From a virus, in the IMG/VR virus record IMGVR_UViG_3300005577_000049, positions 1 through 45,634 of that record: a stretch of 45,634 nt of DNA; one strand, 5' to 3'. Both the position numbers and the translations under genes were made by a program. Positions 3,149-39,813 of the stretch are shown here, in pieces. The notes beneath the pieces are model-generated. The model searched no databases. It was not told where the DNA came from and was given only the letters and a program-made list of their open reading frames with translations. How positions within the stretch are numbered: position 1 is the first letter of the stretch; each line of letters opens with the position of its first letter.

Positions 3149-3653
3149 CATAATCGCGTGTGGAGAAACCGGTAAGTATTGGAACGGCAATGGTCACAAT
3201 GTCGGAGTAAACGATGCCGATAAATGGGGCTATCGCCTTGAACACTTACTGCTGGCGAATGCTCCCGGAAAGTTTGAGCCGGAACGATTGAAGACCATTA
3301 TTGAAAGCAAACCGGATAACTTTTATTCCAATACCGAAGCATGGCGAAAATACTTCCCGAACATGATTCACTATAAAACAGAGTCATGGAATGGAACGCT
3401 GATAAAGAAGCGCGGACTTACAACGATGAACAGTTCGCCATGTATCGCGATGCACTTGGCTTGGCAACTTGGAGCAACCAAATTGATTTTATGGGGTGTT
3501 GATTTTACCAATCACCCTAACATCAACGGCGGCAATCTTAAAACAGAATTGCGGCAATATCGCGGTTTTATTCATGCCTTATTGGAACATGGTGTTGAAA
3601 CTTATCTAGGGGCGAGCGGTTCGGCCTTGGAAGAATTTGTAAACGTGATATGA
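3138..3653 (+). CDS. DUF115/sialyltransferase-like (GT42-like) protein
   Basis: 171 aa. The C-terminal half alternates strands and helices as in DUF115/GT42-type folds: SSPCIAMHLAWQLGATKLIL then a WGVDF turn, then an amphipathic segment ending in YLGASGSALEEF. That resembles the nucleotide-sugar-binding half of bacterial sialyltransferase-like proteins, but the match is by eye and weak. No DxD is visible. It opens the glycosyltransferase island, overlapping terL by 11 bp and the next gene by 4 bp. A role in glycan or nucleotide-sugar metabolism is inferred. It could instead be an unrelated Rossmann-like phage protein. Confidence 0.5.
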   Translation: MTYNIIACGETGKYWNGNGHNVGVNDADKWGYRLEHLLLANAPGKFEPERLKTIIESKPDNFYSNTEAWRKYFPNMIHYKTESWNGTLIKKRGLTTMNSSPCIAMHLAWQLGATKLILWGVDFTNHPNINGGNLKTELRQYRGFIHALLEHGVETYLGASGSALEEFVNVI

Positions 3654-4282
3654 CAGCGACATTAACATGCAATCGCGGAACAGACCGACCACAGTTTATG
3701 GAATTCTGTGTTAATCAGATCGACCGTTTAACGCCGTACCCAGAAATGGTGATAATCGTTCAGTACGAACCAAAATCAAATCAAGCTGACTTGGTGCCCA
3801 GAATGAAAAAAGGCGTTCAAATCGCGAAGGAAAATGGTATTGAAACTATCTACGTGATTGAGAGTGATGATTACTATCCGCATGATTATTTCCAGCTCCT
3901 TCCAATCGGCAGTTATGATTTTGTTGGGTTCAACTCCACGTTTTATTACAACGTTCGGAGAAGAACTTGGGAAAGAACATATCACGATCATTCCAGTTTG
4001 TTTTGCACAGCTTTTAAAGTTGCTGCCCTTGATGATTTTGTTTGGCCGGCCGATGATTACCTATGGCTTGATATCGCGTTATGGAAATATGCCAGGCAAA
4101 GAAGCAATAATTGGAAATTGTTTGATGTAGAGCCGCCATGCATAGGAATAAAGCACGGGATTGGAAGGGTTGGTGGGAAGGGACACGTGCAGAATTTGAA
4201 GAATGCAGATCCTGATATGAATTGGTTAAAAGGCAAAGTGGACAACGAAGCGTTTCAATTTTATATGAACCTAAAATTTTAA
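3650..4282 (+). CDS. GT-A fold glycosyltransferase-like protein 1
   Basis: 210 aa, starting by ATGA overlap. A Rossmann-like half ends in YVIESDDYYPHDY (about residues 68-80), where E-S-D-D is the metal/nucleotide-sugar DxD region of GT-A (family 2-like) enzymes. Downstream PADDYLWLDIALW could supply the catalytic acidic residue. There is no membrane segment, so it should act in the cytoplasm. It lacks the C-terminal part of full-length GT2 enzymes, which is typical of compact phage versions. Donor and acceptor are unknown. Confidence 0.68.
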   Translation: MTATLTCNRGTDRPQFMEFCVNQIDRLTPYPEMVIIVQYEPKSNQADLVPRMKKGVQIAKENGIETIYVIESDDYYPHDYFQLLPIGSYDFVGFNSTFYYNVRRRTWERTYHDHSSLFCTAFKVAALDDFVWPADDYLWLDIALWKYARQRSNNWKLFDVEPPCIGIKHGIGRVGGKGHVQNLKNADPDMNWLKGKVDNEAFQFYMNLKF

Positions 4283-36102: not shown

Positions 36103-36293
36103 CCTTCATCAATTTTAGTTTCACTTTCCTCTACCACTTTTGTGATAGTTATGATGGTTTTGTGTGCCAGGTTACTGTTTATCGCCGATGAAGAGTGATC
36201 TGGAACCCATTCAATATTTTCAATTATGAATTTAAATACCTTGGGAGTATCCTCTCCTTTTTGGAATGTTTTACTTCTGCAAATGGGTTTCAT
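36099..36293 (-). CDS. Hypothetical protein after C5 methyltransferase
   Basis: 64 aa, not recognised; mixed alpha/beta (VFKFIIENIEWVPDHSSSAI). ATGA overlaps with the C5 methyltransferase upstream and the zinc-ribbon gene downstream show co-translation. Confidence 0.6.
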   Translation of the reverse strand: MKPICRSKTFQKGEDTPKVFKFIIENIEWVPDHSSSAINSNLAHKTIITITKVVEESETKIDEG

Positions 36294-37111
36294 GGTTTCT
36301 GGTTTACGGTTTCTATTGCTTTAAAAATCTCGTATGCTACTTGTGGGACGATGGCGTTTCCGAGGGATTTAATTCTGTCCACCCGATTGGATATCCCATC
36401 ATGTCTTCGACAAACAGGGGGTTGAGTCGGAAACGAGTTCCAGTTATATGCTGGACTATCGTTGTAAGATTTGGCGAATTCCGTTTCATTCCAGCATTGT
36501 AACCCTCCGTCTTGCAATCTCTTGCTTTCGGTGTTGGTAGTAATCCTTTCATCGCTAAACCCGGAAGACTCGGAGTAAAATCTTCCCTGTCTCCGCCGCT
36601 GATTTTTGATGCTCTTGGTGTAGGCAACAATCCATATCCTATTTCTTTGATGGGGCGCATTGACGGCGCAAGCTGGAATGATAAATGTTTCGGTGTGATA
36701 CATTTCATCTTCCAACGAAGTAAGCACTTGGTCGAGTGCCATACCGATGATGCCAGTAACATTTTCGCAAACAATGAAGGTCGGTCGAACTTCGCCAATA
36801 ACTCTAAGCATTTCAGGCCAGAGGTAACGGTCATCTTCTTTGCCCTTTCGCTTCCCGGTGACACTGAACGGCTGGCATGGGAATCCTCCGGAAATAATGT
36901 CGATTGTGCCCCTATACTTCGTGCCGTCAAATTCTTTGATGTTTCCATATCTCATTATGTTAGGAAAATTCTTTTCCAAAACCTTTGTGCAGAACTTATC
37001 AATCTCAACTTGGAACACGTTTTCCCAGCCCATCCACTGAGCAGCCAAGTCAAAACCTCCTATGCCGGTGAACAGGCTGGCGTGCTTCATTTTACTGCAA
37101 ATGTGTTTCAT
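36290..37111 (-). CDS. DNA cytosine-5 methyltransferase
   Basis: 273 aa from the ATG at 37111; 37090 (MKHASLFTG) is equally typical of the family. It transfers methyl from SAM to cytosine C5. Motifs: I ASLFTGIGGFD, IV GGFPCQPFS with catalytic Cys79, VI ENV (about 116), VIII QRNRIWIVA (about 155), and IX-X RVDRIKSLGNAIVPQVA near the end. The target-recognition region (about 165-235) is short. No cognate restriction enzyme is next to it, so it probably protects phage DNA. A second long same-strand ORF overlaps it. Confidence 0.93.
   Translation of the reverse strand: MKHICSKMKHASLFTGIGGFDLAAQWMGWENVFQVEIDKFCTKVLEKNFPNIMRYGNIKEFDGTKYRGTIDIISGGFPCQPFSVTGKRKGKEDDRYLWPEMLRVIGEVRPTFIVCENVTGIIGMALDQVLTSLEDEMYHTETFIIPACAVNAPHQRNRIWIVAYTKSIKNQRRRQGRFYSESSGFSDERITTNTESKRLQDGGLQCWNETEFAKSYNDSPAYNWNSFPTQPPVCRRHDGISNRVDRIKSLGNAIVPQVAYEIFKAIETVNQKP
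36337..36948 (-). CDS. Overlapping +1-frame ORF inside C5 methyltransferase gene
   Basis: A 203-aa ORF wholly inside the methyltransferase gene, same strand, +1 frame, with its own ATG. It contains LLPTPRASKISGG, GLLPTPKARDCKTEG and LNPLFVEDMMGYPIGWTEL. I recall database proteins near phage methyltransferases with LPTPxAS and MMGFPIGWT-like motifs. These strings are also what conserved methyltransferase segments (IWIVAYTKS, DGISNRVDRIK) read as in this frame, so the ORF may be a by-product. I keep it at low confidence. Confidence 0.3.
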   Translation of the reverse strand: METSKNLTARSIGAQSTLFPEDSHASRSVSPGSERAKKMTVTSGLKCLELLAKFDRPSLFAKMLLASSVWHSTKCLLRWKMKCITPKHLSFQLAPSMRPIKEIGYGLLPTPRASKISGGDREDFTPSLPGLAMKGLLPTPKARDCKTEGYNAGMKRNSPNLTTIVQHITGTRFRLNPLFVEDMMGYPIGWTELNPSETPSSHK

Positions 37112-37122
37112 GGGTATAGGGG

Positions 37123-37920
37123 TTAAAGCTTGTTCAATTCGTTCCATTGATCTTCCGGCATCCAGTTTTCGTTTGGTTTGCCGGTGCTGGGATCGTAATT
37201 CTCACCGATGTATCGGAAGTGAAGCTCGCGGGCAATTAGCTCGCTTGCTGACGTTTTCGGGTACGATTTATGCTTTGGCTTACTCTGTCCTTCCGAATTG
37301 ATCTCCTTGTCCGTAAGGCCACGCAGATAGCTTAACTGATGGGCATTTCTGGAATGTGTCTTAACACCGCCTTCCTCGTCACATTTTGCAATGGCATCTT
37401 TCCAGAGCTGCAGCCAGTCGGATGTAGAGTTGTTATAAACTTGATTCCGGAAATCGTCCTTCTCCTTCATCAATTCTTCTTCCAGAACCTTGTATTTTTC
37501 ATCCAGGTACGATCGAACCCACATACCGACCTCTATGCCGTCCAGCTTCCATATCTTTCCGTAGGAGCCGTTTGCAGCACGCGCAAAGCAAATCTTAAAG
37601 TCGGCAATGGTTTCGTTTGGATAAGTTCTAACTAAGTGCTCAGCGATCATTTGGATTTGCCCATCCGTGAGGTTTCCTGATACATTGATACTTTCAGCAA
37701 GACGGATTAATTCGAATTCAATGAATCCGGAAACAGTTTGTTCTGACGTGGCTTTTGCCATCTCCCAAATCTTCGGAACATCGAATGATTGCTGGATTCG
37801 TGATGGCAGGTTATTTGACGCCTGAGCAAAGTTCTTTACGTTAAGCGCCTTAACTGTGGCGTCTTGCGAAACCTTCTCTACGTGCGTGTGTTGCGTCTTT
37901 CTTGCCGGTACCATTGTCAT
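37123..37920 (-). CDS. Replication-associated protein (DUF6633-like)
   Basis: 265 aa. The core NLTDGQIQMIAEHLVRTYPN, TIADFKICFARAANGSYGK and DGIEVGMWVRSYLDEKY (about 80-145) matches a conserved Bacteroidota phage/plasmid replication-associated family of unproven function. The ends are disordered and charged. It overlaps the upstream replication-initiator-like gene by 71 bp. A helicase-loader or primosome role is inferred from position. Confidence 0.6.
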   Translation of the reverse strand: MTMVPARKTQHTHVEKVSQDATVKALNVKNFAQASNNLPSRIQQSFDVPKIWEMAKATSEQTVSGFIEFELIRLAESINVSGNLTDGQIQMIAEHLVRTYPNETIADFKICFARAANGSYGKIWKLDGIEVGMWVRSYLDEKYKVLEEELMKEKDDFRNQVYNNSTSDWLQLWKDAIAKCDEEGGVKTHSRNAHQLSYLRGLTDKEINSEGQSKPKHKSYPKTSASELIARELHFRYIGENYDPSTGKPNENWMPEDQWNELNKL

Positions 37921-38934: not shown

Positions 38935-39813
38935 TTAAAATGTTAGAGATAGTTGATATTGTCCTGCGATGGCGTTGCGTGCGTTTCGTTCCGCTATCTT
39001 GAAGTAGCTTTCTTTCAGCTCGACTCCAATCGCTCTTCTCTTCATTTTAAGCGCCTGGTAAACCTCAGAACCAATTCCCATGAAAGGAGTGAACACAATG
39101 TCATTCGGATTACTCCATAAGTGGATAGCGCGCTCGATTGTATCAAGTTGCAGCGGACAGATGTGTTTCTCGTCGTCGTTGTCTTTGCCCTCTTTATTTA
39201 GTGTATTGGTTTGTCTGATGTCATACCAAACAGGGCTTGCGTACTTTTGCCAAAGCGGAATAGGTATGTAATTTGGATCGTTTGGATCGGTACTCGAGTG
39301 CTTTATTGGTTCGGCATTCTCTCCGTGCTTACGGAAAATTAGAAGGTAGTCAGCCGTTCCAACGCGGCTTAAACTCGCGTCTTTGTCTTTCTGCTTATTG
39401 AGCAGGCCTATAGCCTTTGTTCGCGTGACCTCCACCACGGGATCTTTCCATATTGTTATCCGCGAGTGAAATATGAAACCATTCTTCTCGAACTCCTTTA
39501 TCAGCATACCAGGAAAATCACGAAGTCCGATAAACCCTTCCTTGCCCTTGCTTATTGGTAGCTCCATGCAATGGACTGCTATCAGTCTGCCTGGTTTTAA
39601 AATTCGATTCAACTCCGGAGTGAGGAATGAAAAATGTTCAAAAAATTCATTATAATCTCTACAGTTTCCCATGTCCTGGATGAGATCCGAGTAGACATAT
39701 AGTTCCGCGAAGGGGGGGCTGAAAATCGAGAAGTCAACGTATCCGTCGGGGATATATTTGATTTCTTCAACACAGTCCCCATTAATTAAAAGGTGGTCAG
39801 AATCAAGCAGCAT
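38935..39813 (-). CDS. DNA N6-adenine/N4-cytosine methyltransferase
   Basis: 292 aa. The catalytic motif FSPPF (about 31-35) precedes the SAM-binding motif (PFMGIGS, about 243-249; VELKESYFKIAERN), the order of beta-class enzymes. S-P-P-F is typical of N4C and some N6A enzymes. It overlaps the SNF2-like helicase gene by 11 bp; that pairing is common in phages, sometimes as one fused protein. The likely role is self-methylation against host restriction. Confidence 0.88.
   Translation of the reverse strand: MLLDSDHLLINGDCVEEIKYIPDGYVDFSIFSPPFAELYVYSDLIQDMGNCRDYNEFFEHFSFLTPELNRILKPGRLIAVHCMELPISKGKEGFIGLRDFPGMLIKEFEKNGFIFHSRITIWKDPVVEVTRTKAIGLLNKQKDKDASLSRVGTADYLLIFRKHGENAEPIKHSSTDPNDPNYIPIPLWQKYASPVWYDIRQTNTLNKEGKDNDDEKHICPLQLDTIERAIHLWSNPNDIVFTPFMGIGSEVYQALKMKRRAIGVELKESYFKIAERNARNAIAGQYQLSLTF

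Follow-up and report, generated by a model that had tools for sequence, protein, structure and literature searches.

A viral gene for a C5-cytosine DNA methyltransferase and an open reading frame (ORF) nested in its +1 frame are both protein-coding and both under selection, and the overlap is neither a chance event nor a database artefact. The pair lies in the window analyzed here, which is the whole of one complete linear IMG/VR record of 45,634 bases (IMGVR_UViG_3300005577_000049). The methyltransferase, which we call alpha, has 285 amino acids (positions 36290 to 37147, minus strand, as are all alpha and beta features below) and carries motifs I-VIII and X, without motif IX. The nested ORF, beta, begins with ATG and has 203 amino acids (36337 to 36948), as a first-pass annotation of the sequence had reported. 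That annotation also had the ORF span motif IV to motif X, which holds broadly; more exactly, its start is 23 codons ahead of the PCQ in motif IV, and its end falls within motif X. Judging from sequence, the locus very likely encodes a two-subunit C5-cytosine DNA methyltransferase from a single stretch of DNA, with beta made by internal initiation, in the manner of M.EcoHK31I.

Selection on both reading frames

One line of evidence for a second coding frame is the loss of stop codons. Three kinds of query served to collect homologues: the methyltransferase (80 loci), the +1 product, and a +1-product profile. The number of stops expected was computed for the same amino-acid sequences and codons, either by synonymous shuffling within each gene or from the codon usage of the flanks. 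In the gene of this window alone, there are no +1 stops, compared with 5.2 (shuffle) to 7.3 (flank usage) expected (p ~0.003 or less). Across the motif IV-X region of 80 distinct homologues, the +1 frame has 32 stops versus 579 (flank usage) or 417 (shuffle) expected, and those that remain are mostly the terminators of the +1 ORF itself. The depletion is confined to one part of the gene. Among 213 genes, we counted a single +1 stop between motifs IV and VIII (673 expected) and 10 from motif VIII to the place of motif IX (275 expected), while motifs I-III showed no depletion (489 versus 406 expected) and frame +2 showed little.

Because profile searches may favor genes with a good +1 frame, we analyzed separately the 71 genes recovered by the methyltransferase alone. 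These have no stops at all in either region, versus 217 expected for IV-VIII and 87 for VIII-IX (together 0 versus ~304), and again no depletion over motifs I-III (140 versus 126 expected). As a control, PF00145 was used to pick 64 methyltransferase genes from bacterial genomes; these had 782 +1 stops versus 770 expected, and stops were present in every control gene but one (L278), which is itself of the nested type. Codon bias as the cause was rejected on the strength of the within-gene shuffles and the single-chain controls. We also observed that, over motifs IV-VIII of the alpha genes, one antisense frame is short of stops (228 versus 469 expected), which is probably a by-product of the +1 constraint.

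Substitutions tell the same story. In 15 independent close pairs (0.80-0.985 protein identity), the share of differences that fall at third codon positions drops from 0.80 before the overlap to 0.57 over IV-VIII and then to 0.31 over VIII-X, compared with 0.60, 0.62, and 0.58 for the same three regions of single-chain controls. Within VIII-X, variation at codon positions 1, 2, and 3 is 0.249, 0.165, and 0.190, so that it is highest at the first position, the wobble position of the +1 frame. In this region, the +1 frame is better conserved than the methyltransferase frame. The first-pass annotation had taken the conserved segments of the +1 product to be conserved methyltransferase stretches read out of frame; this is correct for IV-VIII and fails for VIII-X, where the +1 frame is the conserved one and the methyltransferase frame is poorly conserved. 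Codon choice in alpha is affected as well. The codon for alpha Leu145 is NTG in 211 of 215 Leu codons because beta Trp70 (36739 to 36741) is invariant, whereas NTG makes up only 26% of Leu codons upstream.

The start of beta is also under selection. Of 217 genes, 193 have an in-frame internal ATG in the open +1 stretch, versus 63 expected from synonymous shuffling (maximum of 81 in 200 shuffles). In this window, it is formed by the alpha codons Tyr-Gly (TAT GGA; 36946 to 36948). Shine-Dalgarno-like 4-mers are moderately enriched ahead of the internal ATG (56 of 193, versus 31 expected). Altogether, the suggestion of the first-pass annotation that dual coding is selected was borne out. It had named two patterns as telling, frequent +1 stops in close homologues and the state of synonymous constraint in the main frame; the stops are absent and the constraint is strong, and single-chain methyltransferases show neither feature.

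Division of the methyltransferase motifs between alpha and beta

What might the nested product do? A first indication comes from what alpha keeps and what it lacks. The match of alpha to PF00145 (7.6e-47) is confined to positions 1-183 of the 324 in the profile. Its catalytic domain is modeled confidently by AlphaFold 2 (AF2), with the best PDB matches to M.HhaI (E 1.7e-15), and it includes motif IV with the catalytic cysteine (PCQ, 36872 to 36880), which is invariant in the alignment of alphas. Motif X is likewise in the alpha frame (GNAIVPQ, 36341 to 36361) and conserved in that alignment. Between motifs VIII and X, the place of the recognition domain and motif IX is taken by a linker, alpha residues 189-250 (36398 to 36583), which is nearly all of the VIII-X stretch and is predicted to be disordered, with AF2 predicted local distance difference test (pLDDT) values below 50. 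The motif IX pattern was found in the main frame of 0 of 211 nested-type genes versus 48 of 64 control genes. In a profile comparison with the recognition domain plus motif IX of single-chain enzymes, the alpha linker gave no match (score 9.2, versus a null of 8.8 +/- 2.0). Alpha thus does not hold motifs I-X in one chain, and its set, I-VIII plus X without IX, is that of the large subunit of an M.EcoHK31I-type enzyme.

The missing part lies in beta. For comparison with single-chain enzymes by hhalign, we used the region from after motif VIII to before motif X, with shuffled templates as the null. Beta, from its first LPTP segment to its end, scored 23.7 (E 4e-4) against the single-chain recognition domain plus motif IX, versus a null of 9.0 +/- 1.5, and the two are collinear. 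That alignment pairs beta LNPxFVExMMGFPxxWT with motif IX RRLTxRECARLQGFPDDF, and it places motif IX of beta at FRLNPLFVEDMMGYPIGWTEL (36370 to 36432). The match of beta, and the lack of one for the alpha linker, show that the +1 frame holds both motif IX and the distal recognition segment; motif IX is thus in the smaller polypeptide, as in an M.EcoHK31I-type enzyme. All three beta segments quoted in the first-pass annotation were found in the +1 product: LLPTPRAS (beta 107-114; 36607 to 36630) directly follows motif VIII and is conserved in the beta alignment, LLPTPKAR (beta 136-143; 36520 to 36543) aligns with the segment that precedes motif IX in single-chain enzymes, and LNPLFVEDMMGYPIGWTEL is at beta 175-193. 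With a simple motif-IX matrix, the MGFP site comes out best in 220 of 238 betas, many of whose loci were found with that very pattern; the matrix scores the beta of this window low, and for this reason, the profile-profile comparison was used instead.

Taken together, the +1 product is most likely the subunit with the motif IX that the main frame lacks. That beta belongs to the enzyme is argued by two observations: alpha is without exactly the motif that beta carries, and beta was never seen without alpha. We envisage that ribosomes start beta internally, at the conserved ATG, that beta associates with alpha, and that its C-terminal half would fill the small-domain place left empty in alpha, providing recognition and motif IX. 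The N-terminal half would probably serve assembly. Only the alpha-beta complex would then methylate the target site, and the phage may use the enzyme as an orphan methylase, either shielding its DNA against restriction or marking it.

Several results weigh against this two-subunit enzyme. The hhalign probability of the match between beta and motif IX is weak (35%), though its score is far above the shuffled controls. PDB sequence searches with beta, as a single sequence and as a profile, returned no methyltransferase; the AF2 model of beta alone has low confidence (mean pLDDT of 63.5), and Foldseek found no PDB match for it. In this window, no Shine-Dalgarno-like 4-mer precedes the beta ATG.

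The collinearity of beta after motif VIII with single-chain enzymes would also fit a programmed frameshift after motif VIII, giving one chain with I-VIII, the recognition domain, and motif IX, beside or instead of a separate beta. We regard this as improbable, since the openness and the third-position constraint begin upstream of motif IV, where a shift at motif VIII would not need them, and since the internal ATGs are selected. Such a chain would moreover be without motif X, M.EcoHK31I uses two polypeptides, and in a 7-mer tally after motif VIII, no sequence was common to more than 82 of 217 genes. It is similarly improbable that beta is an unrelated overprinted protein outside the enzyme, for example, a regulator or an anti-restriction protein. 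Such a role would suit the N-terminal half, which overlaps the catalytic motifs and is conserved but has no detectable relative in profile comparison, and the lack of a structural match for beta; it would leave unexplained why alpha is without precisely the motif found in beta and why beta was never seen alone. Finally, some stretches of the +1 product do mirror conserved motifs of the methyltransferase. Even so, it is hardly credible that amino-acid content, codon bias, or a constraint at the nucleotide level keeps the frame open without any protein being made, given that the expectations already use the same amino-acid sequences and codons, that the effect is limited to one frame and one region and is absent in single-chain enzymes with the same motifs, and that the first-position-dominated change in VIII-X is the coding signature of the +1 frame.

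Distribution and annotation of nested pairs

The nested arrangement is widespread. Among ORFs matching the beta profile, 254 of 256 sit in frame +1 of an alpha (254 loci), and no standalone beta was found among these loci or among the genome matches (~280 loci in total, drawn from phages and from several bacterial phyla). Two ORFs depart from this pattern, one through what looks like a frame swap in L244 and the other as an unusual second gene in L004. In L244 (2211-3233), the 3' parts of alpha and beta exchange frames past a CACACA-type tract, both staying open, which may be a natural slip or a sequencing error. In L004 (3012-3945), a second methyltransferase lies just downstream of the nested one, with motifs I and IX-X in one frame and IV-VIII in another (3176-3812); it is either broken or an overlapping AquI-like split. 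Scanned with the beta profile, GTDB genomes gave 412 matching stretches and IMG/VR at least 530, and in a sample of the phylum of genome G003, 29 of 398 genomes had a beta match, nested likewise. Carriers include Paenibacillus, Lacticaseibacillus, Synechococcus, and Bacteroides phages and E. coli prophages. One copy, in the E. coli PCP07014 prophage (L400:2340-3101), is labeled a pseudogene that has an internal stop, and its +1 frame is broken at about the same place.

Most annotations that we encountered list alpha only, and beta is sometimes given as a hypothetical protein or as a duplicate "DNA methyltransferase." Beta of this window has no match in Pfam or NCBIfam, and it matches PHROG 1008 ("DNA methyltransferase") at 1.4e-30, which means that the library already contains +1 products of this kind. 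Annotators have also entered beta as "g62 internal gene" (phage Lily) and "g50 internal gene" (phage Redbud). The first-pass annotation was therefore right that databases hold out-of-frame predictions, as PHROG 1008 and these Paenibacillus phage entries attest, yet they predict a real overlapping gene.

The record itself is apparently from a tailed phage, which also encodes a terminase large subunit, an HNH nuclease, a helicase, and a second DNA methyltransferase (PHROG 67; 38935-39813), the gene for which adjoins the helicase gene.

It is tempting to generalize from these loci. We put forward, tentatively and with a little more doubt than confidence, that a major class of C5-methyltransferases in phages and prophages, across phyla, consists of nested dual-coded alpha/beta pairs, in which the recognition part has moved to an overprinted frame and constraint is handed over at motif VIII, from alpha before it to beta after it. 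The N-terminal half of beta would then be an assembly domain that arose de novo by overprinting, and specificity would diversify mainly in the beta frame. For a long same-strand overlapping gene of prokaryotes and phages, the support here is unusually good, with hundreds of genes, a clean single-chain control, and a concrete function proposed for the hidden frame; the origin of split methyltransferases also becomes open to testing. There is a practical side as well: codon-optimizing such a methyltransferase gene would silently destroy beta, and recombinant or specificity studies of alpha alone should therefore fail.

Comparison with known methyltransferases

Our literature search found nothing on an overlapping methyltransferase gene in phages beyond mentions of EcoHK31I and AquI. 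The kind is known from isolated enzymes; a family of this size and spread, with such evidence of selection, is undescribed as far as the literature searched here shows. The PHROG 1008 family, which matches beta, is silent on a nested second subunit. Single-chain enzymes (M.HhaI, M.HaeIII, and Dcm; PF00145, TIGR00675) share the catalytic domain of alpha, which is 30% identical to M.HhaI; unlike them, alpha has no motif IX and no recognition-domain match between VIII and X, and its +1 frame is selected. M.AquI, a two-polypeptide C5-methyltransferase for CYCGRG, is also split with motif IX in the small subunit. However, AquI-type enzymes have motif X in the small subunit and genes that are not nested, whereas here motif X is in alpha and beta is nested. 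In two genomes (G333:C106:4189-5446 and G107:C4:21473-22533), we observed a PF00145 match split over two separate ORFs, one with I-VIII and the next with the C-terminal part, which resembles tandem enzymes of the AquI type.

M.EcoHK31I and its isoschizomer M.EaeI are two-polypeptide C5-methyltransferases for YGGCCR. Lee, Kam, and Shaw are said to have reported in 1995 that the small-subunit gene of M.EcoHK31I lies inside the large-subunit gene in a different frame and that both polypeptides are needed in vitro. The beta gene is nested in the alpha gene in that reported way. In M.EcoHK31I, motifs I-VIII and X are in the larger subunit and motif IX is in the smaller (PMC3404938). This split between an alpha-like large subunit and a beta-like small one, compared by description only, is what we find here. 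Two differences stand out: the literature places the M.EcoHK31I recognition domain in the large subunit, whereas here the distal recognition segment aligns with beta, and the present family occurs in phage and prophage genes of many phyla. It is well supported that the enzyme would work like M.EcoHK31I, the likeness being one of arrangement.
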